Assembly: GCA_948466735.1 (NCBI GenBank)
Contig: CAOKBR010000010.1
Span: forward strand, 1-32,452
Reading direction: 5' to 3'
Source of the DNA: an uncultured Mycoplasmatota bacterium
GTDB taxonomy: Bacteria > Bacillota_I > Bacilli_A > RF39 > UBA660
Length of the DNA: 32,452 bases
Shown: one piece after another, positions 1,917 through 32,452 of the stretch
Layout of the letters: each line of letters begins with the position of its first letter
How positions within the stretch are numbered: position 1 is the first letter of the stretch
Program-made: the position numbers and the translations under genes
The notes under the pieces: generated by a model
What the model was told of the DNA's origin: nothing
What the model saw: only the letters and a program-made list of their open reading frames with translations
Database searches by the model: none

Positions 1917-2792
1917 ATGGACAAGTGGAAAGAAGAATATCCCTTATTTTATCAGACTTTGATAAATGAGTTGCAATCACAAACATTGTCTCATTCTTAT
2001 TTGTTCGAATATGATAACTTAGAAAAAGCACAATCTTTTTTAAAAGATTATATCAAAAGCCTATTATCTACTAACTATTTTAATGGAACAACTTTATCAG
2101 AAGATGAGGAAAAAATGTGTTATCAGATTGATCATGATTTATATGATGACTGTATTTGGATATATCCTGATGGTAATTGGATAAAAAAAGAACAACTTAA
2201 TAAATTGCAGCATATTTACCAAACTAAATCTTTACATAATAGGTTTAGAATTTATGTTATTGTTGGTGCAGAAAGATTAAATACTAATTCTGCTAATACC
2301 ATTTTAAAATTTTTAGAAGAACCTAGTGAAGGAATAATTGCATTATTGTTAACTACTAATAAATACGAAGTCTTAAATACGATTTTTTCTAGATGCCAAT
2401 TTTATAATTTAAAAAGTAAGGAAATTGCGGAGGAGTCCTCTGTTTTGCCGATATATTTTGAATTAGTAGAAGTCATAGAAAAAAAAGAAAAAAACGCACT
2501 AATTGATATTTATGTGAAATTTTTATCGTTGTTTGAAAATAAAGAAAAGTTTATAGAAACCATTGATATTTTAAAGAAAATATATACAAAAATTGTGTTA
2601 AAAAATATCAATAATAATCACAATTTAATAATGGACGAAGACCTCTTAAATATAATTTATTCTAAAAATAATGTACCTCGTTTGACTAAAAAAATAGAAA
2701 TGTTAATAATGGCAAAAAAAATTTTATTAACTACTAATGTGAATATTAAAAATTATTTAGAAAAATTTATAATAGAATTTGCGGAGGATTAG
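1917..2792 (+). CDS. holB: DNA polymerase III subunit delta'
   Basis: A 291-residue clamp-loader delta' subunit. It has the AAA+ fold without a functional Walker A site, as expected for HolB. The conserved segment AERLNTNSANTILKFLEEPS (about residues 118-137) followed by the S-R-C-Q motif (IFSRCQF, about 157-163) is diagnostic. The N-terminal region SHSYLFEYDN corresponds to the usual (x)HAYLF(x)G but lacks its glycine-rich loop. The start at 1917 has an AAGAAGGTG ribosome site. It sits between bofA and ricT, as holB does in B. subtilis (recR-bofA ... holB-yaaT). The C-terminal third is poorly conserved and Lys/Asn-rich. Confidence 0.92.
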   Translation: MDKWKEEYPLFYQTLINELQSQTLSHSYLFEYDNLEKAQSFLKDYIKSLLSTNYFNGTTLSEDEEKMCYQIDHDLYDDCIWIYPDGNWIKKEQLNKLQHIYQTKSLHNRFRIYVIVGAERLNTNSANTILKFLEEPSEGIIALLLTTNKYEVLNTIFSRCQFYNLKSKEIAEESSVLPIYFELVEVIEKKEKNALIDIYVKFLSLFENKEKFIETIDILKKIYTKIVLKNINNNHNLIMDEDLLNIIYSKNNVPRLTKKIEMLIMAKKILLTTNVNIKNYLEKFIIEFAED

Positions 2793-2794
2793 AA

Positions 2795-3577
2795 ATGAAA
2801 AAGGTATATGGTGTAAAAATTTTAAATACAAATAAAACAATATATTATGTTTCTGAGGAATTCTTTTATGTACATGATTATGTTATTGTTTTGGTTAACA
2901 AAAATACACAATTAGGAGAAATAATTAAAGATTGTGTTAAGATCAAAGAAGAAAGAATAGATCAGTTTGAAGAAATTTTAAATAAAGCCACGAATCAAGA
3001 TAAAGAAAAATTTGAAAGAAATAAGGAAGAAGCGTCACGTGCTTTGATAGATGCTATAAAATTATCACAACAGTTAAATTTATCTATGAAATTTTTGAAT
3101 GCTTATTTTTCATTTGATCGCAGTCAATTGTTATTTAATTTTATAGCTGATGATCGTGTTGATTTTCGCGAATTAGCAAAGAAATTAGCACAATTATATA
3201 AAACTAGGATTGAATTAAGGCAATTGGGAGTCAGAGATAAAGCAAAAAGTGTTGGAGGAATTGGGCCATGTGGTCTTTCTCTTTGCTGTCATACATTTTT
3301 AAAATCATTTGATAGTGTTTCAATTAATATGGCCAAAAATCAATCATTATCGTTAAATCCAATAAAAATTAACGGATTATGTGGACGTTTATTATGTTGC
3401 TTAAAATATGAAGATGATACTTACACAGATTTAAAATCAAAAATGCCAAAAGTGGGTTCATCAATTAAAACAAAATCAGGTGTCGGACAAGTTGTATCTA
3501 TTGACATTTTCAAGAATTCTGTTAAAGTAGATATTCCTAAAAAAGGAATTGTTGAGGAATTGGTAGATAAATTATGA
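2795..3577 (+). CDS. ricT: PSP1 domain protein RicT (YaaT)
   Basis: A 260-residue PSP1-family protein. In B. subtilis, RicT (YaaT) forms the RicAFT complex with YlbF and YmcA, carries iron-sulfur clusters with them, and affects RNase Y-dependent mRNA maturation, competence, sporulation and biofilm formation. The cysteine-rich centre (about residues 155-205) is conserved: GGIGPCGLSLCCHTF and INGLCGRLLCCLKYE. The FDRSQLLFNF(x)ADDRVDFRELAK segment before it is also typical. A GGAGG ribosome site at 2783-2787 lies inside the end of holB. The stop overlaps the next gene's ATG by four bases. yabA, which follows yaaT in B. subtilis, is absent here. Confidence 0.94.
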   Translation: MKKVYGVKILNTNKTIYYVSEEFFYVHDYVIVLVNKNTQLGEIIKDCVKIKEERIDQFEEILNKATNQDKEKFERNKEEASRALIDAIKLSQQLNLSMKFLNAYFSFDRSQLLFNFIADDRVDFRELAKKLAQLYKTRIELRQLGVRDKAKSVGGIGPCGLSLCCHTFLKSFDSVSINMAKNQSLSLNPIKINGLCGRLLCCLKYEDDTYTDLKSKMPKVGSSIKTKSGVGQVVSIDIFKNSVKVDIPKKGIVEELVDKL

Positions 3578-4317
3578 AAAGGTTAGATGATTTACTGTCA
3601 TATCGGAATTTAAAAATTTATCAAGACGATCAATATTTTTGTTTTTCTTTAGATTCTGTACTTTTAGCTAATTTTGTTCGGTTAGGATACGGTAATAAGA
3701 AAATCATTGATTTGGGAACAGGGACATTACCAATTCCTTTGATTTTGTCAACTAAGACGAACAATAAAATATATGCTATTGAAATTCAAAAAGAGTTATA
3801 TGATTTAGCAAAAGAAACGTTGGACTATAACCAGTTAAGTCATCAGATTAATTTAATAAATGATGATATGAAAAAGTTATCTAAGTATTTTTCTAATGAT
3901 TTTTTTGATATTATGATTGTTAATCCGCCGTATTTTGATACACTTACTAAAAAGTTAAAAAATGAAATAATGCAAAAAGCAATTGCTCGTCATGAGCAAG
4001 AAATCAAATTAGAAGAAATCCTTCTTTTAGCTAAAAAACATCTTAAAAATAATGGCTATTTTTATATGGTACATCGTCCCAGTAGAATGATAGAAATTAT
4101 TCAATTATTTAAAAAGTTCAATATTCAAATTAAGTCAATTCAATTAGTATATCCTAATAGAGAAAAAGATGCTAATATTATGTTAATTGAAGGTACCAAA
4201 AATGGAAAAGTAGGTCTTAAAATTCATCCCCCGTTATACATTTATGATCACTTAGGAAATTATACAGAGGAAATCAAAAAAAGATTTACTAATGAGGTAG
4301 AATATGAAACAAATTAG
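3574..4317 (+). CDS. trmN6: tRNA1(Val) adenine-37 N6-methyltransferase family (YabB-like)
   Basis: A 247-residue class I SAM-dependent methyltransferase. The SAM-binding motif I is IIDLGTGTLPIPLIL (about residues 44-58) and the amino-methylating catalytic motif is NPPYF (about 117-121), characteristic of N6-adenine methyltransferases of the TrmN6/YabB group. Position also supports it: yaaT, yabA, yabB, yazA, rsmI is the B. subtilis order, and here yabB sits directly between ricT and rsmI with yabA and yazA missing. Its start overlaps the ricT stop by four bases, so translation is coupled. The exact tRNA substrate is inferred from the family. Confidence 0.88.
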   Translation: MKRLDDLLSYRNLKIYQDDQYFCFSLDSVLLANFVRLGYGNKKIIDLGTGTLPIPLILSTKTNNKIYAIEIQKELYDLAKETLDYNQLSHQINLINDDMKKLSKYFSNDFFDIMIVNPPYFDTLTKKLKNEIMQKAIARHEQEIKLEEILLLAKKHLKNNGYFYMVHRPSRMIEIIQLFKKFNIQIKSIQLVYPNREKDANIMLIEGTKNGKVGLKIHPPLYIYDHLGNYTEEIKKRFTNEVEYETN

Positions 4318-5143
4318 TTACGATAATCGACCGAGTTTATATCTAATTCCTACTCCAATTGGAAATATGGAGGATATGACAATACGCTCTATTAATACTC
4401 TAAAAATGGTAGATTTATTGTTATGTGAAGATACAAGAGTGGGAATACAATTACTATCAAGTTTAGATATCGATGGTAAGAAAAAAGTTAGTTGCCATAA
4501 TTTTAATGAAGAATCTACAAAAACAATAGTTTTACAATATTTAAAAGATAACAAAAATGTAGGATTAATTACTGATCGTGGAACGCCAGTGATTAGTGAT
4601 CCTGGATATAAAATTGCTAAAATTGTAATTGAACAAGGATATAACGTAATTGGGTTACCTGGTCCTACGGCTTTAATTCCAGCATTGATTACTTCTGGCA
4701 TAGAACCGTCTCCTTTTTTATTTTATGGATTTCTAAATGCTAAAACATCAAAAGCAAAAAAAGAACTTTTGTTGTTAGAGAATTTTCCTTATACCATAAT
4801 ATTTTATGAAGCGCCTCATCGTTTAATAGATACAATAAAGTTATTAAAGGAAATATTAGGAAATAGAAAAATAAGTATTCATCGTGAAATTTCAAAAAAA
4901 TATGAATCAATCTATCGAAATGATTTAGATCATATATTAGAAGATATTGATATTGTAAAAGGTGAGTATGTTATTATTATTGAAGGAAACAGAAAGCAGA
5001 TTGATTATTCTAAAATCACTTTAGAAGAACATGTTCGCTTATATCAACAAACAGGATTAACAATTATGTCTGCAATCAAACAAGTAGCTAAAGATAGGAA
5101 TATGACCAAACAAGAAGTTTACAAAAAAGTACAAGGAAAGTGA
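4304..5143 (+). CDS. rsmI: 16S rRNA (cytidine-1402-2'-O)-methyltransferase
   Basis: A 279-residue RsmI of the tetrapyrrole-methylase fold. It methylates the ribose of C1402 in the 16S rRNA decoding centre. Visible signatures are LYLIPTPIGNMEDMTIRSI near the N-terminus, LLCEDTRVG, the SAM-binding loop DRGTPVISDPG (about residues 91-101) and GLPGPTALIPALITSG. The usual DAGTP is DRGTP here, a single change in an otherwise intact motif. The C-terminal helix ends MTKQEVYKKVQGK, the usual short helical tail. The ATG at 4304 lies 14 bases inside the previous gene with a GAGG ribosome site just before it. Confidence 0.96.
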   Translation: MKQISYDNRPSLYLIPTPIGNMEDMTIRSINTLKMVDLLLCEDTRVGIQLLSSLDIDGKKKVSCHNFNEESTKTIVLQYLKDNKNVGLITDRGTPVISDPGYKIAKIVIEQGYNVIGLPGPTALIPALITSGIEPSPFLFYGFLNAKTSKAKKELLLLENFPYTIIFYEAPHRLIDTIKLLKEILGNRKISIHREISKKYESIYRNDLDHILEDIDIVKGEYVIIIEGNRKQIDYSKITLEEHVRLYQQTGLTIMSAIKQVAKDRNMTKQEVYKKVQGK

Positions 5144-5727
5144 TGAAAATGAAATTAATAGTAGGATTAGGTAATCCAGGAAAAGAATATATTCAAACAA
5201 GACATAATATTGGTTTTATGGTATTAGATGATTATTTGCAAAGAAATAACGTTAAGATTGATCAAAAAAAGTTTAACGGAGAATATACAATATATCGCAT
5301 GAATCAAGAATCTGTTCTTTTTTTAAAGCCATTATCTTATATGAATCTTTCGGGAGAGGTGATTGAAAAATTCATCCATTTTTATCAAATAAAAATTGAA
5401 GATATTTTTATCATTCACGATGATTTAGACTTGCCAATAGGAACATTTAAATTAAAAATAAAAGGAAGTAGTGGCGGACATAACGGCTTAAAAAATATAG
5501 AATATTTATTATCTACACAGGAGTATAAACGATTAAAAATTGGAATATCAAATGATAAAAACATAGATACAAAAGATTACGTATTAGGAAAATTTTCTTT
5601 AGATGAATTAAAAAAAATTCAGTTATTGATGGATCAATTTGAGCAAATTATAGACCAATTTATCAATAATATATCATTTGATAAAATAATGAATCAATTT
5701 AATCGTCATGGGAAGTGTGAACAATGA
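5143..5727 (+). CDS. pth: Peptidyl-tRNA hydrolase
   Basis: A 194-residue Pth, which recycles peptidyl-tRNA dropped from ribosomes. The GLGNPG motif opens the protein, the catalytic histidine is H21 in TRHNIGF, and the substrate-binding residues appear in YMNLSG, DDLDLPIG and GSSGGHNGLK. The start is uncertain: GTG at 5140, ATG at 5143 and ATG at 5149 are in frame. The AGGA at 5134-5137 is best spaced for 5143, and the protein proper begins MKLIVGLGNPG. In B. subtilis pth lies next to mfd, and it does so here: its stop overlaps the mfd ATG by four bases. Confidence 0.96.
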   Translation: MKMKLIVGLGNPGKEYIQTRHNIGFMVLDDYLQRNNVKIDQKKFNGEYTIYRMNQESVLFLKPLSYMNLSGEVIEKFIHFYQIKIEDIFIIHDDLDLPIGTFKLKIKGSSGGHNGLKNIEYLLSTQEYKRLKIGISNDKNIDTKDYVLGKFSLDELKKIQLLMDQFEQIIDQFINNISFDKIMNQFNRHGKCEQ

Positions 5728-8700
5728 ACTTAGATGTATCAATGATTTCAAATGATTTGTTGAAAAAGAATACAGTATGGAATGGTCTTACGAATGAAGC
5801 ATTTTCTTATGTAATTAACCAATATTTTAAACAGCAACAGGAAAATATCTTAATTATTACACCGACACTTTATGAAGCAAATCAAATTTATGATTCTTTA
5901 GTAAACTATACCGATGCAGTTTACCTTTTTCCTATGGATGATTTTTTAACAAGCGAAGCAGTTGCTATTAGTCCAGATTTAAAAATCACACGATTAGATA
6001 CTATAAACCAAATACTAAAACAGCCGAAATCTATTGTTATTACACATCTAATGGGATATTTACGTTTCCTTCCGACACCATCTTGTTATAAAAATCATAT
6101 TTTACAATTAAATAAAAATACATCGTATCAACATGATGAATTATTAGAAAAAATATATTGTTTAGGATATCATAGAGAATCTATGGTTACGCAAACAGGA
6201 GAATATGCTGTAAGGGGTTATATTTTAGACATATTTCCATTAAATGTGGAACATCCAATTCGTATTGAGTTTTTTGACGAGGAAATTGAATCGATTCGTT
6301 ACTTTGATGAATCAACCCAAAAGTCATTAGAAATAGTAGACTCAATTGTTATTTCACCATATACAGAATATTTATTAGATGAACAAAACCCTATAGAAAT
6401 ATTAAATCAAAAATACTTAAAGCAAAATAGTAAGAAAATTGCATCTTTGGGCGATTATTTACCTAATCATTTAACAGTTTTTAAAGACGAACCTCGTTTA
6501 ATTGAACAATATCGTCATTTAATGGAGGAAGTTTTAACCTATAAAGCAAATAACGATCTATCTTATCAGGGAGAGTATTTTCATCAACTTGAAAACCTTG
6601 TAGAAAAAGATGTTATTTATTATCAAACCATTGATAATCTTTCTCAAAAAAAGTTTTCTCAAATCAATTTTAACAGTAAAACAATAAACCAATTTAATGA
6701 AAATATTGATTTACTTACTAAATATTTAGATAATGCCATAAATCATCAAAAAACGGTTATTTTGAGTTTGAAACCACATCAATTACAGAGTATCAAAAAA
6801 TATGTACATATGACAAATTTCAATTCAATTGTTAACCAAATTAAGGAAAATGCTATTAATGTAACTGATTTTTTATTTCTAGAAGGATTTGAGATGAATT
6901 CTTATATTGTCTTAACAGCAAAGGAGATCTTTAATCAACATATTAAGAAAAAGGTGTATCAAACTAAATATAAATATAGCTCAAAAGTAAAAGATGTTAA
7001 CAAATTACAAATTGGTGATTATGTTGTGCATTATGTTCATGGTATTGGTGTATATAACGGAATTAAAACTTTAGAATCAAATCATATTAAAAAGGATTAT
7101 TTAGAATTACTATATTATGGTACAGATAAACTTTATATTCCTGTAGAAAAAATTGAATATATTAGTAAATTTTCAGGAAAAGAGGGTATTGTACCTAAGA
7201 TTAATAAACTAGGTGGAAATGAATGGGAAAAAACAAAAAATCGTGTTCGAAAAAGAGTAAAAGATATTGCTGAAAAACTTTTGAAGATATATGCAGCAAG
7301 AGAGTTGCAAACAGGATTTAAGTTTAGCAAGGATAGTGAATTTCAAACTAAATTTGAAGAAGAATTTCCATATTCACCGACGAAGGATCAATTAATTGCT
7401 ATTCAACAAATAAAAGAAGATATGGAAAGTTCTTCCCCAATGGACAGGCTACTTTGCGGAGATGTTGGTTATGGAAAAACAGAAGTAGCTTTTCGTGCTA
7501 TTTTCAAAGCTATTATGGATAGTAAACAAGTAATCTACTTATGCCCAACAACGATTTTATCTAACCAGCAATATAAAAATGCTAAAACTAGATTTGCTAA
7601 TTATCCAGTTAGAATTGCTTTATTAAATCGTTTTACAACGACTAAAGAAACGAAAGAAATATTAAAGCAATTTCACGAAGGACAAATTGATTTATTATTT
7701 GGTACACATCGTTTATTAAGTAGCGATGTAGTTCCTAAAGATTTAGGATTACTTGTGATTGATGAAGAACAAAGATTTGGTGTATCGCACAAAGAAAAAA
7801 TAAAAGAATATAAAACAAATATAGATGTATTAACATTAACTGCTACACCAATTCCTAGGACTTTGCAATTATCATTAGTAGGTATTAGAAGTATGTCTTT
7901 AATTGAAACTCCGCCCATTGATCGATATCCTGTACAAACTTATGTGCTAGAGGAAAATGATTTAATTATAAAAGATGCAATATATAAAGAGTTAGCACGA
8001 AATGGTCAAGTATTTCTTTTATATAATTCTGTTGAAAATATAGAGCAAAAGGCAAATCAAATTCAAAACTTAGTAAAAGAAGCAAGAATAAATTATGCAC
8101 ACGGTCAAATGAGTAAAGAGGAACTTGAAAATACTATGCTTCATTTTATTAATCATGATTTTGATGTATTAATTTGTACCACAATTATAGAAACAGGAAT
8201 TGATATTCCCAATGTAAATACCCTAATTATTTTATCCGCTGATCATTTTGGGCTAAGTCAATTGTATCAAATTCGCGGACGTGTTGGACGAAGTAATAAA
8301 ATTGCATATGCGTATTTAATGTATAGTAAAAATAAATTGTTAAGTGATACTGCAATAAAAAGGTTAACAGCAATTAAAGAATTTACAGAATTAGGAAGCG
8401 GTTTTTCCATTGCAACTAGAGATTTATCTATTCGCGGGGCAGGGGATATCTTAGGTAGTGAACAAGCAGGGTTTATTGATACCATTGGAATAGATTTATA
8501 TTTAAAAATGATAAATCAAGAAGTCGAGAAATTAAAAAATGGTCAAAATAATAGCGAATATGATGAAATAATGGATGATTCTTATCAAGAAGAACAAGTT
8601 GAAGAACGACCATTATTAAACGTTACTACTCATATTGATGATGAATATGTACAAGATACAGATATAAAGATAGAAATTCATCAATTAATTAATAAAATTG

Positions 8701-10578: not shown

Positions 10579-12102
10579 ATGAAAAAGTATTACATTACCA
10601 CTCCAATTTATTATCCTAGTGCTAGTTTTCATATCGGTCATTGCTATACTACAGTAAGTGCTGATGCGATTGCTAGATATAAACGATTAACTGGATATGA
10701 TGTTTATTTTCAAACAGGAACTGATGAACATGGCCAAAAAATTGAAAGAAAAGCAAATGAAGCCAATGTTAGTCCAAAAGAGTATGTAGATGAAATTGTT
10801 AGAGATACTAAAGATTTATGGGAAAAGTTAAATATTTCTTATAATCGTTTTTATCGTACAACCGAAGAAGATCATATAGAAATTGTCCAAAAAATTTTTT
10901 CTTATTTATATCAAAAGGGTGATATTTATAAAGGAGAGTATAAAGGGTTATATTGTACCCCGTGTGAAGCATTTTGGACGGTTACTCAATTAGTAGACGG
11001 AAAGTGTCCAGACTGCGGTAGAGAGGTAGAAGAAGTAAAAGAAGAAAGCTATTTTTTTCGTTTATCTAAATATCAAAAGCAGTTAGAAAACTATTTTGAA
11101 AAACATCCAAATTTTATTCAACCAGTTTCTAGAAAAAACGAAATGATTAATAACTTTTTAAAACCAGGATTAGAAGATTTGTGCGTATCAAGAACAACAT
11201 TTAATTGGGGAATTCCCGTTAAAGAAGACCCAAAACATGTAGTGTATGTATGGATTGATGCTTTAACTAACTATATTACATCCCTTGGATATATGAAAGA
11301 TCATGATGAAATGTTTCAAAAATATTGGCCAGCTGATTTGCATTTGGTAGGAAAAGAAATTATTAGATTTCATACGATTATTTGGCCATCAATTTTGATG
11401 GCATTAGATTTAGAATTACCTAAGCAAATTTTCGGACATGGTTGGTTAATGATTGATGGAAAAAAAATTAGTAAATCCCTTGGAAATTATAAAGACCCAA
11501 GAGAATACATTAACGATTATGGTGTTGATGCTGTTCGCTATATTATTTTAAGAGAAGTTCCTTTTGGAAATGATGGAAATTTTACTGTAGAGGGTATGAT
11601 TAATCGAATTAATGCTGATTTAGCCAATAATTTAGGAAATTTAGTCAATCGCACGTTAAGTATGTTAGATAAATATTTTGATGGCATAATTCAAAAACCA
11701 ACAAAGCAAGAAGAAGTGGATAACGATTTAATTCAAATGTCTTTATCATTACCTAGACAAGTAGAAGATAAGATGGAGCAATTAAAAATAAGTGAAGCGT
11801 TAACTGATATTTTTGACTTATTAAAAAGTGCTAATAAGTATATTGATGATACTATGCCTTGGGTATTAGCGAAAGATGATAGTAAAAAGGAAAGATTAGG
11901 AACAGTTTTATATAATTTGCTAGAAGTAATTCGTTTTGCTGCTGTGTTGTTGCAAGCATATTTACCTGATACTGCTGAAAAAATATTAAATCAGCTAAAT
12001 ACAAAAGAAAAGGATATTTCTACATTAACAAAATTTGGTGGATTAAAAGATCAGGTGAAAATTAACGAACATGTTCCATTATTTTTAAGAATTGAGAAAT
12101 AA
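10579..12102 (+). CDS. metG: Methionyl-tRNA synthetase
   Basis: A 507-residue class Ia synthetase that charges tRNA-Met. The HIGH motif is residues 18-21 (FHIGHCYT), the KMSKS loop is KISKS at about 296-300, and the knuckle carries four cysteines in CTPCEAFW and CPDCGREV (about 127-148), which would bind zinc. The catalytic core and anticodon-binding helical domain are complete. The protein ends there, without the C-terminal Trbp111-like tRNA-binding domain that makes the B. subtilis enzyme about 660 residues long. An AAGGAGG ribosome site precedes the ATG. tatD starts immediately after its stop codon. Confidence 0.97.
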   Translation: MKKYYITTPIYYPSASFHIGHCYTTVSADAIARYKRLTGYDVYFQTGTDEHGQKIERKANEANVSPKEYVDEIVRDTKDLWEKLNISYNRFYRTTEEDHIEIVQKIFSYLYQKGDIYKGEYKGLYCTPCEAFWTVTQLVDGKCPDCGREVEEVKEESYFFRLSKYQKQLENYFEKHPNFIQPVSRKNEMINNFLKPGLEDLCVSRTTFNWGIPVKEDPKHVVYVWIDALTNYITSLGYMKDHDEMFQKYWPADLHLVGKEIIRFHTIIWPSILMALDLELPKQIFGHGWLMIDGKKISKSLGNYKDPREYINDYGVDAVRYIILREVPFGNDGNFTVEGMINRINADLANNLGNLVNRTLSMLDKYFDGIIQKPTKQEEVDNDLIQMSLSLPRQVEDKMEQLKISEALTDIFDLLKSANKYIDDTMPWVLAKDDSKKERLGTVLYNLLEVIRFAAVLLQAYLPDTAEKILNQLNTKEKDISTLTKFGGLKDQVKINEHVPLFLRIEK

Positions 12103-12103
12103 T

Positions 12104-12865
12104 ATGTTATTAATTGATACGCATTGTCATATTGAACCATTGGAAAACAAAATTATAGATAAATTAAAAGAAGCAACGGAGCATCAAGTAGGAATTTTAA
12201 TCATTAGTTATTGTGAAATAGAGGAAATCAAAAAATATTTCTTGTTGAAAAAGAAAATAGATGGTATTTATTATACATTGGGATACCACCCTTCAGAAGC
12301 AAGTAAAATAAAAGAAGAGGATTTATCTTTTTTAAAAAAAATGTTATTTGAAAATCATGTAATTGGAATCGGTGAAATCGGATTGGATTATCATTACGGA
12401 AAAGAAAATAGAATGTTACAACTTGATTTATTTAAAAGACAACTTTCTATTGCAGAAAGCGAAAATTTACCAGTAATAATTCATTCAAGAGATGCTACAT
12501 TAGATACAATAAAAGCATTAAAGGAATATCGTGTTCGTGGAATTATCCATTGTTTTTCAGGTAGTTTAGAAACTGCAAGAGAATATATCAAAATGGGTTT
12601 TTATCTTGGCATAGGGGGAGTTGTTACTTTTTCAAATAGTAATTTAAAAGATGTGATAAAAGAAATTCCATTAACTTCTATTGTATTAGAAACAGATAGC
12701 CCTTATCTAGCACCAGTTCCATTTAGAGGTAGTGAAAATTCATCAAAAAATATTTTTGTTATTGCTAGTTATATTGCTAAGGTGAAAGAAGTGTCAAGTG
12801 AAGAAGTAGCACAAATAACTACAAATAATGTTTTGCAAATATTTGACCATAAGATAAAAATATGA
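12104..12865 (+). CDS. tatD: TatD family metal-dependent hydrolase/DNase
   Basis: A 253-residue TIM-barrel hydrolase of the TatD family, linked to 3'-5' exonuclease and DNA-quality roles. Metal ligands are visible in IDTHCHIE (H7, H9), GIGEIGLDYHYG, IIHSRDA, IIHCFSG and LETDSPYLAP. The ATG at 12104 begins directly after the metG TAA, so translation is coupled. An upstream in-frame TTG at 12092 would overlap metG and is unlikely. metS-tatD (yabD) is also the B. subtilis order, followed there by yabE; here a shorter 3D-domain protein follows. Confidence 0.94.
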   Translation: MLLIDTHCHIEPLENKIIDKLKEATEHQVGILIISYCEIEEIKKYFLLKKKIDGIYYTLGYHPSEASKIKEEDLSFLKKMLFENHVIGIGEIGLDYHYGKENRMLQLDLFKRQLSIAESENLPVIIHSRDATLDTIKALKEYRVRGIIHCFSGSLETAREYIKMGFYLGIGGVVTFSNSNLKDVIKEIPLTSIVLETDSPYLAPVPFRGSENSSKNIFVIASYIAKVKEVSSEEVAQITTNNVLQIFDHKIKI

Positions 12866-12894: not shown

Positions 12895-13494
12895 ATGAAA
12901 AAATTAATAAAAAAAATCCTTGAATATTTTTCCTTTGTTTTGTGTATTGAATTGATGATCTTAATTGTCATTAGCGGAAATAAAAGATATTCAGTTACGA
13001 CAACAAATACAAATATAGTAAAATCAATTGAAGCAATTCATATTGTTAATAAATATGAATCTATTTTATCTGCTAAAGAAGATTCAATAGTAATTCCTGT
13101 TTACGAAAACTTCGATGAGTTAGTAGCTAACGGAGCAAATGGTCCTGTATCTTTTATTGGAACGATTACTGGTTATGGTCCTGATTGTGAAGGATGTGGA
13201 GGTAGAACTGGTTGTCCTCCTAGACAGGATGTGCGAAATGGAAATATTTATTATGATGACGATGAATATGGAACCATTAGAATTGTGGCTACGGATAAAA
13301 GAATTCCTTGTGGAAGTATTGTAAAAATTTCCAATTATCATTTTGCTGATGAGCCGATTATTGCGATTGCTCTTGATCGAGGAGGCGCAATTAAGAATAA
13401 AACTATGGATTTACTTTATAATTCAGAAGAAGAGACAATTCCAATTGGTAGACAGTGGGATATAAAATTTGACATTATACGTTGGGGATGGTAG
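12895..13494 (+). CDS. Secreted or membrane-anchored 3D-domain protein (YabE slot)
   Basis: A 199-residue protein with one N-terminal membrane or uncleaved signal helix (about residues 12-27) and a C-terminal 3D domain (about 105-199). The three conserved aspartates appear in IVATDKRIPCG, IALDRGG and KTMDLLYNSEEE. The 3D domain is a double-psi barrel resembling lytic transglycosylases of the MltA type, so a peptidoglycan-related role outside the membrane is likely. A cysteine-rich segment (CEGCGGRTGCPP, about 99-110) precedes it. The gene takes the place of yabE, but the DUF348 and G5 domains of YabE are missing. The AAAGGTG ribosome site is good. Catalytic activity is not proven from sequence. 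Confidence 0.85.
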   Translation: MKKLIKKILEYFSFVLCIELMILIVISGNKRYSVTTTNTNIVKSIEAIHIVNKYESILSAKEDSIVIPVYENFDELVANGANGPVSFIGTITGYGPDCEGCGGRTGCPPRQDVRNGNIYYDDDEYGTIRIVATDKRIPCGSIVKISNYHFADEPIIAIALDRGGAIKNKTMDLLYNSEEETIPIGRQWDIKFDIIRWGW

Positions 13495-13562
13495 TCTTCA
13501 ACTTTTTATTTACTATTGAGAGATAATTTTTTGCGATTATTAGAAAAAAATCCGTTTGTTTC

Positions 13563-13591
13563 TTGAATAAGAATTTCGAATATGTTAATAT
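13563..13591 (+). promoter_or_regulatory. Extended -10 promoter for the first TasA-like gene
   Basis: TTGAAT at 13563-13568, a 17-base spacer and TGT then TAATAT at 13586-13591. The same -10 form occurs before the second TasA-like gene. The block TATGTTAATATAT at 13581-13593 recurs exactly at 15206-15218 ahead of the signal peptidase gene. Confidence 0.6.
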
Positions 13592-13621
13592 ATTAATAGA
13601 ATATTGTAGGTGGAGGAAACT

Positions 13622-14290
13622 ATGGTAAGAGAAAATAATAGTAATGTCAGGAATTTGGTTATTTCTTTAGTTGGTATTTTTGTATTGATTGTTGTTGCAA
13701 TATGTACAAGTTATGCTGCATTTACGTTTAGTAAAACGGGAGATAAAGTAAATACGATTACCACTGGTTCAATAACATTTTCCTATAATGAAACAAGTAA
13801 TGGCATATCGATTGTAAATGCTCAACCAATGACTGATGCTGCTGGAAAAACTTTAATAGCTCAATCATCAGAAAATGGAATTAATCAAGGTTATTTTGAT
13901 TTTAATGTCAGTGGAACAATACGAGGAAATAAAACTATTTCTTATGAAGTTTATGGATTAATGGATAGTGCAAGTACACTTGAACCGCAATATGTAAAAG
14001 TATATCTTACAGACGGAGAGTTGACTGATGCTCCTTTAGCAGGATATGATGGTGCAGTAGTACCTGTTTATAATAGTTTACCTGTTGCAACTAGTGATAG
14101 TAATGGAAAAAGGTTATACTTGGGGACTTTTAATAATACTGATTCGGTAAAAAATTTTCGTTTAAGAATGTGGGTGGCAGATACTTATCAAGGTGATAAG
14201 CAAACAACTATTGATCCTGATACAGGAATCACTTCATCAGGAACAGTAAAAAAGAACTTTTCTATGACGGTAAATGTTAAAGGAGCTTGA
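13622..14290 (+). CDS. TasA/camelysin-like secreted protein 1 with SipW-type signal
   Basis: A 222-residue exported protein. A hydrophobic segment (residues 12-32) ends in TSYAAFTFSKTG, like signal peptides processed by SipW-type peptidases (the SYAYFT-type end), with likely cleavage after A32 or A33. The mature part is beta-rich and Thr/Ser/Gly-rich and shares with the next gene the stretches TTGSITFSYNETSNGI, QPMTDAAGKTL and FRLRMWVAD. By family it should be a TasA/camelysin-like surface or matrix subunit. GGAGG at 13612-13616 sets the start at ATG 13622; the in-frame GTG at 13610 lies in the ribosome site. No clear terminator follows, so some transcripts may run into the next gene. Confidence 0.82.
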   Translation: MVRENNSNVRNLVISLVGIFVLIVVAICTSYAAFTFSKTGDKVNTITTGSITFSYNETSNGISIVNAQPMTDAAGKTLIAQSSENGINQGYFDFNVSGTIRGNKTISYEVYGLMDSASTLEPQYVKVYLTDGELTDAPLAGYDGAVVPVYNSLPVATSDSNGKRLYLGTFNNTDSVKNFRLRMWVADTYQGDKQTTIDPDTGITSSGTVKKNFSMTVNVKGA

Positions 14291-14500
14291 TAAGAATATA
14301 CTTTTCTTTTATGGGAAGGCATTTTTCTTGACATTTTTTTACACTTTTAAAATTGTTTTCACTTTGTTTATTTTTACCATAGTGTTCGTTTTTTTAAATA
14401 TTTTTAAAAATTCGTAAAATATTTAGATAAAATAAAAAAACTTATTGCTTTTTTTTTCTAGCTTTGATAATATGGATATTGTAAAGGAGGTTAGAAACAT
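14291..14500. other. 210-base intergenic region upstream of TasA-like gene 2
   Basis: This is the longest gap inside the island. It has long T runs, an AT-only perfect inverted repeat (AAATATTTT at 14396-14404, AAAATATTT at 14416-14424) and a promoter at 14445-14473. Possible weak promoter elements occur upstream (TTGACA at 14328 without a well-spaced -10). I see no ORF of note, no strong terminator and no known riboswitch. Confidence 0.5.
14445..14473 (+). promoter_or_regulatory. Extended -10 promoter for the second TasA-like gene
   Basis: TTGCTT at 14445-14450, a 17-base spacer, and TGA then TAATAT at 14468-14473. It matches the promoter at 13563-13591 in spacing and -10 form. An AT inverted repeat lies 20 bases upstream of the -35. 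Confidence 0.6.
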
Positions 14501-15124
14501 ATGAATAACAATTCAAAACAAATTTTATTATCAGTTCTTGGTGTTGCCATTTTAGTTGTTGCAGTAGTAGGTGTATCATTTGCTGCTTTCACATTTAGTC
14601 AAGAAGGACAAGTTGAAAACTACATTCAAACTGGAACAATTACAATGACTTACACAGAAGGTTCAACAGGAATCACTTTAACAGAAGCACTACCTATGGC
14701 AGATGCTCAAGGTAAACTTTTATCAGGTGAAGGACAAAAATTTGATTTTTCAGTACAAGCAACATTATCATCTGCTACAACAATCAATTATGAAATCACA
14801 GCAATCAAACAAGCAATCACAGGTGAAGGAATTACTCAATTAAAAGATACAGATGTTAAATTGTACTTAGAAAAATCAGTAGGAGATACTGCTAATTATA
14901 CTCAAACAATGGCTCCTACTAACTTTACTCCAATTACTAGTGATAGCGCAACTGGTTCACCATCTGGTTCAATGGTTCTAGAAAGTGGATCATTTACTAC
15001 TCAAGGAACAACGATTCACAATTATCGTTTAAGAATGTGGATGGATCAAAATGCACAAGTTACTGGAACAACTCAAAAATATTCAGTAAAAGTAAATGTG
15101 TATGCTAAACAAGTAGTTGAATAG
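14501..15124 (+). CDS. TasA/camelysin-like secreted protein 2 (probable major subunit)
   Basis: A 207-residue exported protein paralogous to its upstream neighbour. The signal segment (residues 8-29) ends GVSFAAFTFSQEG, with likely SipW-type cleavage after A28 or A29. Conserved with the neighbour are TGTITMTYTEGSTGI, LPMADAQGKLL and YRLRMWMDQ near the C-terminus. The mature chain is Thr/Gln/Ser-rich with no cysteine, as in fibre-forming TasA-like proteins. The gene uses more AAC, ATC and TTC codons than its neighbours and has a strong AAAGGAGG ribosome site and its own promoter and terminator. This suggests high expression, possibly as the main building block. Function is inferred from family and context. 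Confidence 0.85.
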   Translation: MNNNSKQILLSVLGVAILVVAVVGVSFAAFTFSQEGQVENYIQTGTITMTYTEGSTGITLTEALPMADAQGKLLSGEGQKFDFSVQATLSSATTINYEITAIKQAITGEGITQLKDTDVKLYLEKSVGDTANYTQTMAPTNFTPITSDSATGSPSGSMVLESGSFTTQGTTIHNYRLRMWMDQNAQVTGTTQKYSVKVNVYAKQVVE

Positions 15125-15129
15125 GATTA

Positions 15130-15165
15130 AAAAAAGGACTTAAATGCAAGTTCTTTTTTCTTTTT
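15130..15165 (+). terminator. Strong Rho-independent terminator after TasA-like gene 2
   Basis: A 12-bp stem with one G-T pair: AAAAAAGGACTT at 15130-15141 pairs with AAGTTCTTTTTT at 15148-15159 around a six-base loop, followed by further T. It separates the two subunit genes from the signal peptidase unit. Confidence 0.9.
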
Positions 15166-15178
15166 ACCTAAAATTTTG

Positions 15179-15208
15179 TTGAAAAGATTCTCAATTTTAT
15201 GATATTAT
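15179..15208 (+). promoter_or_regulatory. Promoter for the signal peptidase unit
   Basis: TTGAAA at 15179-15184, an 18-base spacer, and TGA then TATTAT at 15203-15208. A second possible -10, TGT then TAATAT (15211-15216), lies within the 13-base block shared with 13581-13593 but lacks a good -35. Either would leave the ATG at 15217 too close to the start of transcription. Confidence 0.5.
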
Positions 15209-15243
15209 GTTAATATATGAGAATAATAAGACAGGTGAGTACA

Positions 15244-15903
15244 ATGAAGGTGGAAAAATGGAAGGATGAAAAGAAAAAAAGTTTTTTTAATCGAGAACTT
15301 TTTGAAAAAGTTAAGAAAACTTTGCATTTTATTACATCAATATTCATGTATGCAATTTTAGGAATTTTAGTAATTGCAGGAACAATGATGTTAATTTATT
15401 TCATTGATATTAAAATTAATGTAGCAAAAGGAACTTATACAGCGCCAATTTATGGGGCATACATTATCATCAGTGAAAGTATGGTTCCAACGATTCAAGT
15501 ACAAGACGCTATTGTAATAAAGAGAGTAGAAGGAGAAGACATTAAGGTAGGCGATATTATTACTTTTACTTCTACAGATACTAGATTTCCTGGAGTTACG
15601 ATTACCCATCGTGTTGTGGAAATAACAAAAGATGAAAAGGGAAAATATTTATTTAGAACTAAGGGTGATCATAATAATACGGCTGATTTTACTTTGATTG
15701 ATGAAGATCATGTCAATGGAAAAGTAGTATTAAAAATTCCTAAAATTGGATATATTCAATATTTTTTAACGCAATCATATGGATGGATTATAGCCGTTGT
15801 TATTCCTTGTTTGGGAATTGTAATTTATGATATTATGAAATTGTGTAAAGTAATTAAAAATAACATTAAACCAAAAAAGAAAATTGTATCAAAAAAAGGA
15901 TAA
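15244..15903 (+). CDS. sipW: SipW-type (ER-type) signal peptidase I
   Basis: A 219-residue membrane signal peptidase. A helix at about residues 30-54 precedes the catalytic domain, and a second helix lies near the C-terminus (about 180-200). The nucleophile is S79 in SESMVPTI. The usual bacterial catalytic lysine is replaced by H122 in ITHRVVEI, with D142/D148 in KGDHNNTAD, so this is the Ser-His-Asp class shared with SipW, archaea and eukaryotic ER enzymes. In B. subtilis, SipW cleaves TasA and TapA, matching the neighbours here. The ATG at 15244 follows AGGTGAG; an in-frame ATG at 15217 overlaps the promoter. It heads a four-gene unit. Confidence 0.93.
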   Translation: MKVEKWKDEKKKSFFNRELFEKVKKTLHFITSIFMYAILGILVIAGTMMLIYFIDIKINVAKGTYTAPIYGAYIIISESMVPTIQVQDAIVIKRVEGEDIKVGDIITFTSTDTRFPGVTITHRVVEITKDEKGKYLFRTKGDHNNTADFTLIDEDHVNGKVVLKIPKIGYIQYFLTQSYGWIIAVVIPCLGIVIYDIMKLCKVIKNNIKPKKKIVSKKG

Positions 15904-15915
15904 AGAGGTAAACAA

Positions 15916-16443
15916 ATGAAAAAATGGATATTTACTATAATAGGCGGTGTAGTGTTAATTGGTTTTGTCATTATTACTTCTATTGCTTGGTATCATTTCT
16001 TTGCTAAGGAAGAAGTCTTATTAACAAATTTTCAAGTATTTAGTAGCAATAGTACAGAATCAATAACGAATCAAGTTCCTATGAGTGACGATGTTGCAAT
16101 AAAGGATTTACCGCCGTATGAAGTAAAAATTAAAAATAATGGAACAGGTTCAGGTTCTTATAAAATGTGGTTAGAAGAATTAAATTCGTCTATGGTAGAT
16201 GATGGATGCAATGACAATCAATTATTAGATAAAAGTCAATTGCGATATCAAATTACATTAAATGGTGTTGAACTTGCAATAGGTGAGTTAAGTGAAAAGG
16301 AAAATAACATTTTAGATATTGAAAATTTAGCTCCAGGGGAAGAAAACGTTTATCAAATTCGAATTTGGGTTGCTGAAAGAAGTGAACAGTCGAATTGGTG
16401 GAATAAACATTTTCATTATAAAATTAGGGTTAATTCTATATAA
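15916..16443 (+). CDS. Divergent third member of the TasA-like island
   Basis: A 175-residue exported or anchored protein. A helix at residues 5-23 is followed by SIAWYHFFAKEE, a divergent form of the SYAAFTFS signal end seen in the two upstream proteins, so cleavage by the peptidase is less certain. It keeps the same two landmark motifs: VPMSDDVA (compare LPMADAQG) and YQIRIWVAE (compare YRLRMWMDQ). NNGTGSGSYKMWLEEL gives it an extra Ig-like strand pattern. One cysteine (DDGCNDN) is present. I infer a minor, tip or anchoring subunit, parallel to TapA, but no function is proven. An AAAGAGG ribosome site lies in the 12 bases after the peptidase stop. Confidence 0.7.
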   Translation: MKKWIFTIIGGVVLIGFVIITSIAWYHFFAKEEVLLTNFQVFSSNSTESITNQVPMSDDVAIKDLPPYEVKIKNNGTGSGSYKMWLEELNSSMVDDGCNDNQLLDKSQLRYQITLNGVELAIGELSEKENNILDIENLAPGEENVYQIRIWVAERSEQSNWWNKHFHYKIRVNSI

Positions 16444-16455
16444 GGAGAGAGAAAT

Positions 16456-17127
16456 ATGAGAGAATTTATAAATCAATATATTAAATTAATAGCATCAGCA
16501 TTAACAGGATTAATTTTTGCTTATGCTTCATTTTATTTAATTCTAAATATTTATCATCAACAAGAAATTGCTAGGGTGATGAAAGTTGATGTGCAATCAT
16601 TAAGTAGTTATACGACTATTCAAAAAAACTTAGATGAAGTAGCAGAAAACATTAAATTTACACCAAATACTTATAAAGGACCATATGATACTACAATGCT
16701 ATTATCTATGCAAGGAGCTATTTCTATATGTCGAAATTATATTATGAACGATACATTTAAAGATTTAACTACTCATCAGGAAATTGGTATTGTTGATATA
16801 GAAAATTTCCGCTCATCATTTCAAAATGATGTGGTAAACAAATGTATGATTGAACAATTATATTATTTCACTTCAGATCGTCCAATTTTAAAGGAAATTC
16901 GACCATTTATTAAATCAAATATTCAATTGTTTATTGATTCAGACATGTACATTAAGCGTGATATCTTTAATAATAGTAGCTATTTCTTTAATTCAGATCA
17001 TACCGATAATACTTATCGTAGTTCAGTAAAAGATGCATTTGCCCATGTGATGAATCATTATAAATCAGCATCAGATTTCTTATTAGAAGTTTCTAGATGG
17101 TATAAAGATAGAGTGGAGGAACGCTAA
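16456..17127 (+). CDS. Unrecognised single-pass membrane protein of the SipW island
   Basis: I do not recognise this 223-residue protein. One membrane helix at residues 9-33 is followed by an external (inferred) soluble domain of about 190 residues, mostly helical, with two cysteines (C92 and C130) that could form a disulfide. It lacks the AAFTFS signal end and the RIW motif of the fibre proteins, so it is not another subunit. It has an AGGAGAG ribosome site, and its stop overlaps the next start by one base, so the two membrane proteins are made together. A role in assembly, anchoring or folding of the island's secreted proteins is a guess from position. Confidence 0.75.
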   Translation: MREFINQYIKLIASALTGLIFAYASFYLILNIYHQQEIARVMKVDVQSLSSYTTIQKNLDEVAENIKFTPNTYKGPYDTTMLLSMQGAISICRNYIMNDTFKDLTTHQEIGIVDIENFRSSFQNDVVNKCMIEQLYYFTSDRPILKEIRPFIKSNIQLFIDSDMYIKRDIFNNSSYFFNSDHTDNTYRSSVKDAFAHVMNHYKSASDFLLEVSRWYKDRVEER

Positions 17128-17744
17128 TGAAAAATATAGTAAATAAAATATTTTATGTTTTAAAATTTATCCTATTGATTTTATCCTTTGCCTTATCTTT
17201 ATTAATTATTGTAAAAATGTATGAACGTCTTGGAAAAAGTTTAAAGGAATCGTTATCATTCTTTTTACCTTTTTTAGCAATATTTATTGTATTTTCCATA
17301 AATATGGTAGCTGATCAAAAAGCAGTGAAAGACAATATGTTTTTTAACATTACTTCTTGTTTGGTATTATTAGTAATTACCTATATTGGATATCGTACAA
17401 TATTTGATAAAAATATGATTATTAATAGCTATATGGGTTATGGTATGAGTTTTAATTATTATTCTGAAGCCGTTCCTTCGATTAAAATGTTATTATACGG
17501 TTTAGTAATTACAGATATTTTCTTAATGTTTATTAAAGAAGAGAAAAAGCCTATTCCTATTAAGCTTGAGAGTAAAGAACCTATTATAGAAAAAGAAGAA
17601 AAGCAAGAAACGGTGGTAAAAGAAGAAAAAGAATTAAAAACTCCACTAAAGAAAAAAAGTACATATACCCCTAAACCTTCGTCAAGAAAAAGAAATGAAC
17701 AATATACATCAAAAAATAAATATACTGATAAGAAGAAACGTTGA
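17127..17744 (+). CDS. Unrecognised four-helix membrane protein with charged tail
   Basis: A 205-residue protein I do not recognise. Four hydrophobic segments (about 7-28, 41-61, 71-93 and 116-135) are followed by a Lys/Glu-rich then Lys/Ser/Thr/Arg-rich tail (about 137-205), which should be cytoplasmic if the N-terminus is inside. Such tails are often disordered. The gene begins on the last base of the previous stop, with GTGGAGG before it, and closes the SipW unit; its stop lies inside the terminator stem at 17731-17760. An export accessory or membrane scaffold is possible, but nothing in the sequence identifies a function. Confidence 0.75.
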   Translation: MKNIVNKIFYVLKFILLILSFALSLLIIVKMYERLGKSLKESLSFFLPFLAIFIVFSINMVADQKAVKDNMFFNITSCLVLLVITYIGYRTIFDKNMIINSYMGYGMSFNYYSEAVPSIKMLLYGLVITDIFLMFIKEEKKPIPIKLESKEPIIEKEEKQETVVKEEKELKTPLKKKSTYTPKPSSRKRNEQYTSKNKYTDKKKR

Positions 17745-17763
17745 TATTTGTGTTTCTTTTTTT
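17731..17763 (+). terminator. Rho-independent terminator closing the SipW island
   Basis: AAGAAAC at 17733-17739 pairs with GTTTCTT at 17752-17758, extendable by weak pairs, and a T run reaches 17763. The stop codon of the four-helix protein lies in the loop. Confidence 0.75.
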
Positions 17764-17784: not shown

Positions 17785-17793
17785 TGATATGAT
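17785..17793 (+). promoter_or_regulatory. Extended -10 element for rsmA
   Basis: TGA then TATGAT at 17788-17793, just downstream of the island's terminator. The -35 at 17 bases (TAGCTT) is poor. Transcription would start near 17800, supporting the rsmA start at 17813 rather than the in-frame ATG at 17789. Confidence 0.45.
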
Positions 17794-17812
17794 AATAGAT
17801 ATTGGTGATATT

Positions 17813-18607
17813 ATGGAAAATTTTATATTTAAGAAATCGTTAGGACAAAATTTTTTAACAGATACAAATATTGTAAAAAAAATTGTTGAAGTAGCAGGAT
17901 TAACCAATGAAGATTTGGTTATTGAAATTGGGCCTGGAAGTGGTGCTTTAACTATTGAATTAGCTAAGCAAGCTAAGTTTGTGTTATCTTATGAAATTGA
18001 TGAGCGATTAGAAAGTATTTTAGATGAAAATTTAAAAGAGTTTTCTAATGTCGAAATTATTTATTCTGATTTTTTGAATAGAATAGTAAAAGAAGATATC
18101 AAAAAATATTCTTTTAAACGTTTATTTGTAGTAGCAAATTTGCCTTATTATATTACAACGCCAATTATTGAAAAAATAATTGAGGAAGATTTATCCATTG
18201 AAAAAATTGTTGTTATGGTACAAAAAGAAGTAGGGGATCGTTTTTCTGCTAAAACAGGAACAAAAGATTACAATTCTTTATCAATATTTTTACAATATCA
18301 TTATGAAGTGAAAAAGGAATTTATTGTTAGTAGAAATTGTTTTATTCCAAAACCTAATGTAGATAGTGTGATTGTATCTTTCACCAAAAGAAAATATAAA
18401 GAGGAAATTCACCATATAGAAAATTTTGAACAATTAATAAGAGATAGTTTTCGTTATAAAAGAAAAAATTTAAGAAACAATTTAAAGAGTTATCCATTAG
18501 CACTTATCAATGAGGTATTATCGAAGTATGGGTTAGATTTAACTACTCGCGCTGAGCAAATTTCTTTAGAAATATTTATTGATTTAGCAAATACATTATT
18601 TCCTTAA
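17813..18607 (+). CDS. rsmA: 16S rRNA adenine-1518/1519 N6-dimethyltransferase (KsgA)
   Basis: A 264-residue KsgA/RsmA, which dimethylates two adjacent adenines near the 3' end of 16S rRNA late in 30S assembly. The N-terminal KKSLGQNFLTD, the SAM motif IEIGPGSGALT and the catalytic NLPYYITTPI are all intact, as is the C-terminal helical domain (FRYKRKNLRNNL). The ATG at 17813 follows GGTGAT. In B. subtilis, rnmV (RNase M5) lies just upstream and yabG downstream; here the SipW island occupies the rnmV side while yabG is retained. Confidence 0.97.
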   Translation: MENFIFKKSLGQNFLTDTNIVKKIVEVAGLTNEDLVIEIGPGSGALTIELAKQAKFVLSYEIDERLESILDENLKEFSNVEIIYSDFLNRIVKEDIKKYSFKRLFVVANLPYYITTPIIEKIIEEDLSIEKIVVMVQKEVGDRFSAKTGTKDYNSLSIFLQYHYEVKKEFIVSRNCFIPKPNVDSVIVSFTKRKYKEEIHHIENFEQLIRDSFRYKRKNLRNNLKSYPLALINEVLSKYGLDLTTRAEQISLEIFIDLANTLFP

Positions 18608-32130: not shown

Positions 32131-32396
32131 CTAAATCCTACCATCAAACATTATGGATAGTTCCGATAATATTGGACCCCAATTTTGATAAGGAGCAGTC
32201 CATTTTTTAGTAATATTTTTTGTTGATAAATATAGGCATTTTAATAAGGACATATCTGTTGGAAAAACAGATTTCGTTTTTGTATATTTTCTAAATTGTC
32301 GGTTTAAAGATTCGATAGTATTCGTAGTATACATTATCTTTCTTATTGATTCTGAAAATTGGAAAAATGGACAAATTGCATCCCAATTTTCTTCCC
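32131..32396 (-). pseudogene. IS256-family (Mutator-type) transposase, C-terminal remnant
   Basis: About 88 residues remain, from TWEENWDAICPFFQF to the stop, of a DDE transposase normally near 400 residues. IRKIMYTTNTIESLNRQFRKYTK, SVFPTDMSLLKCLYL, KKWTAPYQNWGPILSELSIMFDGRI are the characteristic C-terminal blocks, with the catalytic glutamate in NTIESLN. The N-terminal DNA-binding part and both catalytic aspartates are missing. The frame runs on to an ATG at 32437-32439, but those 14 residues are encoded by the adjoining IS end, not by the transposase, so this is a chance chimera. Confidence 0.85.
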
Positions 32397-32452
32397 AAGT
32401 GAGTGTGTCCAAAAATCTGTGTAAATGATAACTTTCCATGATAGAAGCAATA
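32397..32452. repeat. IS end, copy 2 (cut by window edge)
   Basis: A direct repeat of 32015-32070 in the same orientation, four mismatches in 56. It interrupts the transposase reading frame and probably begins another IS copy or marks an assembly join. Confidence 0.75.

Follow-up and report, generated by a model that had tools for sequence, protein, structure and literature searches.

The window examined here is a stretch of 32,452 nucleotides from an uncultured Mycoplasmatota bacterium, and it holds, between a 3D-domain gene and rsmA, a block of genes for which a role in building a surface fibre of the SipW/TasA kind is proposed. The window genome (G000) is a 1.06 Mb draft in 58 contigs that is 92.8% complete, and its named relatives are metagenome-assembled genomes of uncultured Bacilli/Tenericutes, Candidatus Onthousia and Ca. 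Scybalousia; record labels point to an animal gut for several of them. The gene order is tatD, 3D protein, fibA, fibB, sipW, fibC, M1, M2 and rsmA, with the block spanning window positions 13622-17744. On its 5′ side lie tatD (12092-12865) and, 3′ of it, the gene for a 3D-domain protein of the YabE/SpsC-like kind (12895..13494, plus strand; PF06725, 28.5 bits, above cut-off), and on its 3′ side lies rsmA, also named ksgA (17789..18607, plus strand; TIGR00755, 258 bits). An earlier sequence-only reading had listed tatD, a 3D protein, two TasA-like proteins, a peptidase, a divergent third protein, two membrane proteins and rsmA in this order, and the open reading frames (ORFs) and the PF06725 and TIGR00755 matches confirm it.

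All block genes are on the plus strand. FibA (13622..14290) is a TasA-superfamily secreted subunit with a SipW-type leader, identified by a FibAB profile match of 204 bits, by alignment and by a ribosome-binding site; its start is placed at ATG 13622 in preference to GTG 13610, with GGAGG immediately 5′ of the ATG. FibB (14501..15124), a second such subunit and the proposed shaft protein, was identified from alignments and an AlphaFold2 (AF2) model. The SipW-type signal peptidase (15244..15903; ORF listed from 15217) is followed by FibC (15916..16443), a third TasA-superfamily protein and the proposed membrane-anchored base, by M1 (16456..17127), which has one membrane helix and a helical ectodomain, and by M2 (17127..17744), a hydrophobic membrane protein that, as its alignment shows, ends in a basic C-terminal tail.

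The block is conserved at this position in relatives. In a set of 80 named loci gathered through sipW, and so biased towards that gene, most have it flanked by tatD/(3D) and rsmA, while in a sample of 60 rsmA loci chosen independently of the block it is present at nine. Taking the rsmA-drawn loci together with those read earlier, the block occurs in 15 of 79 genera, all in one family of uncultured Bacilli. In most of the family, little or nothing separates the genes of tatD-3D-rsmA, and the 3D gene is kept at empty sites too (40 of 47 in relatives). A short form consisting of fibAB copies, sipW and rsmA without M1/M2 also exists, and stand-alone FibA/FibB copies stand in tandem at two to six per block. 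Three loci (L149, L155, L163) have sipW between the 3D gene and rsmA and no recognised Fib gene.

In a 97-row tree built from tatD and rsmA, the rows that carry the block fall into one group (SH-aLRT 88) and one extra lineage, so that two changes are required for block presence. Distances for sipW, FibC, M1 and M2 track host-gene distances (Mantel r 0.66-0.89; 0 of 999 permutations), and these comparisons indicate that the block is inherited vertically. Against the sister species, the ratio of nonsynonymous to synonymous divergence (dN/dS) is 0.02-0.19 for all block genes and lowest for M1 (0.019), which shows purifying selection. Because dozens of genera have the block at one and the same site and all of its genes are under this selection, it is taken to be more than a chance arrangement. 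The claim that a fibre-type set had been built into the core cluster is supported by its retention at that place across genera. In the same sister comparison, the synonymous divergence (dS) of fibB (window 14501-15124 vs L027 3002-3625) is 0.28 and that of the other block genes 0.59-1.25, and the low value may reflect strong codon bias or recent conversion. One relative (G005) has foreign-looking genes inside the block (L028 2936-6696 and 11511-12665), namely a transposase-like ORF between fibAB copies and four ORFs between M2 and rsmA.

FibA and FibB carry a SipW-type cleavage site, consisting of small-x-Ala, the next residue, and then an aromatic or aliphatic residue. This motif is present in 160 of 211 FibAB relatives compared with 6 of 49 FibC relatives, and its context in FibAB, A|AF, is the same as that of TasA, in which the P2′ residue is Phe (PMC10269814). 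FibC is nonetheless homologous to FibAB (hhalign probability 98.6, E 5e-16), and the FibAB and FibC profiles match two further proteins of the window genome at 1e-29 to 1e-19. One of these (L049 2923-3525) is matched by the FibAB profile at 3e-23 and by the FibC profile at 1e-19, and itself passes the PF12389 cut-off with 24 vs 22.5 bits. This chain through an intermediate protein was used because direct Pfam/NCBIfam assignment of FibA, FibB and FibC as TasA failed, and by way of it the three proteins are placed in the TasA/camelysin superfamily.

The AF2 model of FibB (mean confidence, pLDDT, 89) consists of a membrane helix and a beta-sandwich. Its fold matches the TasA fibre structure 8aur at E 2e-3, probability 0.97 and a template modelling (TM) score of 0.38, a weak match found among many beta-sandwiches. 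Searches of the PDB with the FibAB profile gave weak matches, from E 0.001 upwards and mostly to archaeal pilins and DUF973, which possibly reflect similarity of the leader helix; the PF12389-type protein used as a PDB query gave no match. Pfam/NCBIfam scans of the block genes returned no match to a TapA model, in agreement with the earlier remark that TapA is lacking, and by sequence no TapA-like gene is present in the block, TapA being a starter with an AFHDI-like N-terminus. FibC is the functional candidate for a TapA-like starter, though it is without a cut site.

The peptidase is a signal peptidase I of the archaeal/endoplasmic reticulum type (TIGR02228, 103.4 bits against a cut-off of 51.85), and a profile search points to SEC11A/C. 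Ser88, His131, Asp151 and Asp157 are invariant in eight relatives, bearing out the Ser-His-Asp assignment proposed from the sequence, in place of the bacterial Ser-Lys. The Bacillus SipW equivalog model NF046067 was not reached (82.5 bits vs a cut-off of 190), and by these scores the window peptidase is classed as a relative of that equivalog, not a member. Further peptidases of this type were observed elsewhere in the window genome: a SipW-like domain behind an apparent Cro/C1-type helix-turn-helix on contig C1 (L048 9327-10124; profile A5 match, 1e-22), and two more among large secreted proteins on contig C7 (L047 6912-17906), one with cadherin-like domains, in what is probably another export cluster.

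M1 and M2 matched no Pfam family. The AF2 model of M1 (pLDDT 90) is a membrane-anchored helical bundle with two cysteines, C92 and C130, conserved among relatives, and M2 has about four helices, as read by eye from the sequence. M1 gave no PDB match by structure or by sequence, and its assignment to a known fold was dropped. In loci found from M1 alone, M2 lies 3′ of M1 in 30 of 30 and sipW lies 5′ in 29 of 30, the contig of the remaining locus stopping 178 bases upstream; FibC is present in 25 of 30 and rsmA in 26 of 30. Within the class Bacilli, M1 is found in this family only, except for two marginal partial matches. Since M1 and M2 match nothing known, "distinct assembly system", a possibility raised from the sequence, is a fair description. 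Whole fibAB-sipW-fibC-M1-M2 modules also occur away from rsmA at seven loci (L101, L102, L110, L113, L121, L132, L148), in six of which an ORF of about 200 amino acids lies 3′ of the module; a YetF C-terminal domain was found in the one scanned.

The FibB domain is also scattered through the genome, which lay outside the view of the sequence-only reading. Searched with the FibAB profile, the window genome gave 28 matches spread over 15 contigs. Twelve of them are strong and outside the block, and these dispersed copies are proteins, or remnants of them, with an N-terminal FibB domain and a leader. Several run on into BspA-type leucine-rich repeats (LRRs), the longer ones matching LRR_5 at 1e-28 to 1e-74, and fusions of 480-890 amino acids are common. 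The copies on contigs C5 and C36 share 98% identity over 748 bp, comprising an upstream stretch and the FibB domain, and then about 66% in the LRR part, a pattern that looks like cassette-type recombination. A relative, G104, has 28 dispersed copies, and in the 13 that were aligned the C-terminus is the most variable part; its tips are named FGE/lectin-like on motif resemblance, as the Pfam FGE match is weak (E 0.04). Other tips include DUF285/LRR and InlB-type repeats in G028 and Listeria-Bacteroides repeats in G103. At E <= 1e-30, the genomes with the FibAB family are precisely the 15 of 79 that bear the block, a co-occurrence that is partly circular because the block itself contains FibAB. 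The count of copies outside the block avoids this circularity: 8 of the 9 genomes that have M1/M2 carry such copies, compared with 0 of the 6 that lack M1/M2 (Fisher p 0.0014, kinship uncorrected). In the window genome, the dispersed genes and fragments (L264-L277) lie on contigs C1, C3, C4, C5, C13, C14, C15, C19, C21, C22, C36, C38 and C52; some are broken, the array on C3 largely so, and C3c and C19 share a TAA at one codon.

Seeking reverse transcriptases in nine block genomes revealed diversity-generating retroelements (DGRs) in relatives, adjoining FibB-domain or lectin-like target genes. In G078 (L336 3819-6191), a FibB-domain protein (2309-3988) is followed by a template repeat (4100-4197), a small ORF, a bAvd-like ORF and a reverse transcriptase (5088-6191). 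The target repeat (3819-3916) lies within the C-terminal part of the FibB-domain protein; template and target differ at 23 of 98 bases, and all 23 differences are at template adenines. In G090 (L342 5079-8354), 28 of 28 mismatches over 162 bp are at template adenines, with the FibB-domain target truncated by the contig end. Both reverse transcriptases match RVT_1 above cut-off (1e-19 in G078, 2e-15 in G090), and the bAvd matches (3e-7 and 7e-9) fall below the curated cut-off. When repeats were scanned for changes at A, C, G and T alike, only adenine passed, or thymine for genes on the opposite strand. On these signatures, the two elements are identified as DGRs targeting FibB-domain proteins. 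A third DGR, in G015 (L341 157-2724), probably also mutates a FibB-domain protein: 12 of 12 mismatches over 87 bases are at template adenines, but the target gene is cut before the N-terminus. G005 (L339), where the target gene is truncated by the contig end, and contig C33 of G078 (L344) gave no template/target repeat, and G103 (L337), which has template/target-like repeats beside a reverse transcriptase, was set aside as its target lacks a FibB domain. No RVT_1 match was found in the 92.8% complete draft of the window genome, nor any reverse transcriptase match in G104, where the codon-position pattern (0.83 vs 0.5-0.7 elsewhere) does not decide the matter. A DGR was dropped for both genomes, and because of the missing reverse transcriptase their repertoire must vary otherwise.

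The content of the block, its conservation and linkage, the domain fusions and the retroelement signatures are shown by the sequences. We read the block as machinery for a SipW/TasA-type surface fibre, serving dispersed, sometimes DGR-mutated adhesin subunits, a reading to which we give a probability of roughly 0.55. FibA and FibB, the SipW-type leaders of which are observed, would be exported and cut by the linked peptidase. The freed N-terminal strand (AFTF...) would then complete the beta-sandwich of the next subunit, so that the fibre would grow as in TasA, for which assembly by donor-strand exchange is known in Bacillus subtilis (PMC9674648, PMC10151520). FibC is proposed as a membrane-held base because its cleavage site is almost always absent; uncut, it would remain in the membrane as base or starter, with M1 and M2 as a membrane platform that may hold or load FibC and the shaft. 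The large FibB-domain proteins with LRR, lectin-like or repeat tips would join the same fibre as exchangeable adhesin subunits, and in two relatives, as the template and target repeats show, a DGR mutates the C-terminal tip of such a protein. In favour of a fibre, unlinked second copies carry the same five genes (fibAB-sipW-fibC-M1-M2). It is a more tentative proposal, held at somewhat less than even odds, that the system is a hitherto undescribed counterpart in single-membrane bacteria of an adhesive pilus, with one conserved SipW-FibC-M1-M2 platform in the core cluster and many exchangeable tips that are DGR-mutated in some lineages.

Several points weigh against this reading. The fibre is proposed from genes and no filament has been seen; FibA, FibB and FibC are without a good direct match to a TasA model or PF12389, FibB having none and 2-3 of 66 relatives matching weakly, and the PF12389 link of the intermediate protein is narrow. 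The fold match of FibB to TasA is weak, with an E-value no better than those of other beta-sandwiches, and the N-terminal strand of the model has low confidence (pLDDT 53). FibA/FibB lack the cleavage site in some relatives, including both Fib proteins at one locus (L039 7615-8814, G014). The window genome has no DGR, and the association of copies outside the block with M1/M2 ignores kinship, with the FibAB profile less sensitive for short-block lineages.

Some of these points would also suit an arrangement in which no fibre is made, the FibB domain being a monomeric surface-display module with SipW as its dedicated peptidase, M1/M2 retaining or checking the displayed proteins, and the dispersed proteins acting as single adhesins. 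The abundance of 480-890 amino acid fusions fits such a module, as do the failed direct TasA-model matches and the weak fold match. However, the tandem stand-alone FibA/FibB copies have no tip to display, FibC is without a cleavage site, as expected of a base, and SipW-linked members of the same superfamily form fibres (PMC9674648); pure display, the chief rival, is the less likely reading. Still less probable is a role of the block in making fibres of the spore surface or coat. Its core-cluster neighbours include yabG, spoVT/spoVG and yabP, spoIVA is present in the genome, TasA was originally described as spore-associated, and yabG lies 3′ of rsmA in 39 of 45 block rows compared with 17 of 44 empty rows. 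This association is almost without independent support because the tree shows just two changes in block presence; the same core cluster is present in family members without the block, and among block rows two that have M1/M2 and four that lack M1/M2 are without yabG.

The position of the block is that of rnmV elsewhere, as rnmV lies directly 5′ of rsmA in ten other Bacilli families. No rnmV was found in the tatD-to-rsmA interval of the window, and TIGR00334 gave no match above cut-off in any of 41 family genomes, with B. subtilis positive as a control; a class sample yielded rnmV in 94 of 149 genomes, but in none of its family members, of which there were at least 19. Since the gene is missing family-wide, including from members with an empty tatD-3D-rsmA site, it was lost either earlier than the island arrived or separately from that event. 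The sequence-only reading had suggested that rnmV was displaced or lost, of which the loss stands. An insertion of the fibre genes in place of rnmV, as the shared position might suggest, is rejected as highly improbable, given that rnmV is absent even where nothing lies between tatD-3D and rsmA.

The proposed fibre system can be compared with several that are known. With tapA-sipW-tasA of B. subtilis it shares a SipW-type peptidase linked to TasA-superfamily secreted proteins, the A|AF context and a beta-sandwich subunit; it differs in its locus, in the lack of TapA and in having two or more paralogous subunits, together with an apparently uncleaved FibC, M1, M2 and dispersed adhesin-like fusions. 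The closest organisation, from the parts of the source consulted, is the tapA-less sipW-tasA/calY system with CapP (BC1280) of Bacillus cereus, which has two TasA paralogues and an accessory assembly protein and, like the block, is sortase-independent (PMC13082335). In contrast, M1 and M2 have no Pfam family, and those parts of the source describe neither dispersed adhesin fusions nor a DGR for that system (PMC13082335). In the anaerobe Clostridium perfringens, the BsaA-SipW matrix system likewise pairs SipW with a matrix protein, a likeness drawn by description (PMC7395162), whereas M1 is in no other Bacilli family except for the two marginal matches. The closest logic is that of DGR-diversified type V pili of Bacteroides, which share the anchor/stalk/tip scheme and DGR-mutated tips with C-terminal binding domains (PMC12632263). 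Their machinery is unrelated, however, consisting of lipoprotein pilins in an outer membrane, as opposed to SipW-type leaders and a single membrane here. The reverse transcriptase, bAvd-like protein, template repeat adjoining the target and adenine-only changes are those of general DGRs; what differs is that the target starts with a SipW-type fibre-subunit domain, in relatives and not in the window genome. A literature search found no paper joining DGRs with TasA; preprints and many subscription papers lay outside it, and priority is unproven.

These findings provide a conserved candidate system for surface or host attachment in small-genome gut bacteria known mostly from sequence, along with two protein families, M1 and M2, for which no relatives are known, and they tie SipW-type fibre subunits concretely to variation driven by retroelements. 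Should the fibre model be true, it would parallel the DGR tip pilins of Bacteroides with unrelated machinery, and variable fibres would have arisen twice in gut bacteria; if the pilus-counterpart reading is true, the surface of small-genome gut bacteria would be made variable by it. Adhesin repertoires in draft genomes can also be sought with the FibB profile.

The gaps 5′ of fibA and fibB are 127 and 210 bases long, compared with spacings of 12 bases or fewer from sipW through fibC and M1 to M2. A terminator-like hairpin with a T run lies 3′ of fibB (15130..15165, plus strand; 12-pair stem, fold z -2.57), and a promoter-like site, TTGAAA-18-TATTAT with TG before the second hexamer, lies 5′ of sipW (15179..15208, plus strand; 10/12 in a consensus scan), although in that scan promoter-like sites in the region overall are no more frequent than in shuffles. 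It is plausible that the shaft genes, fibA and fibB, are transcribed separately from the rest of the block. The first ATG of the sipW ORF, at 15217, is only 9 bases past the promoter-like -10 box, and ATG 15244 is favoured as the start. No Rfam matches were found in the window. At the contig end, a partial transposase-like ORF was read by eye on the minus strand (32131-32439).

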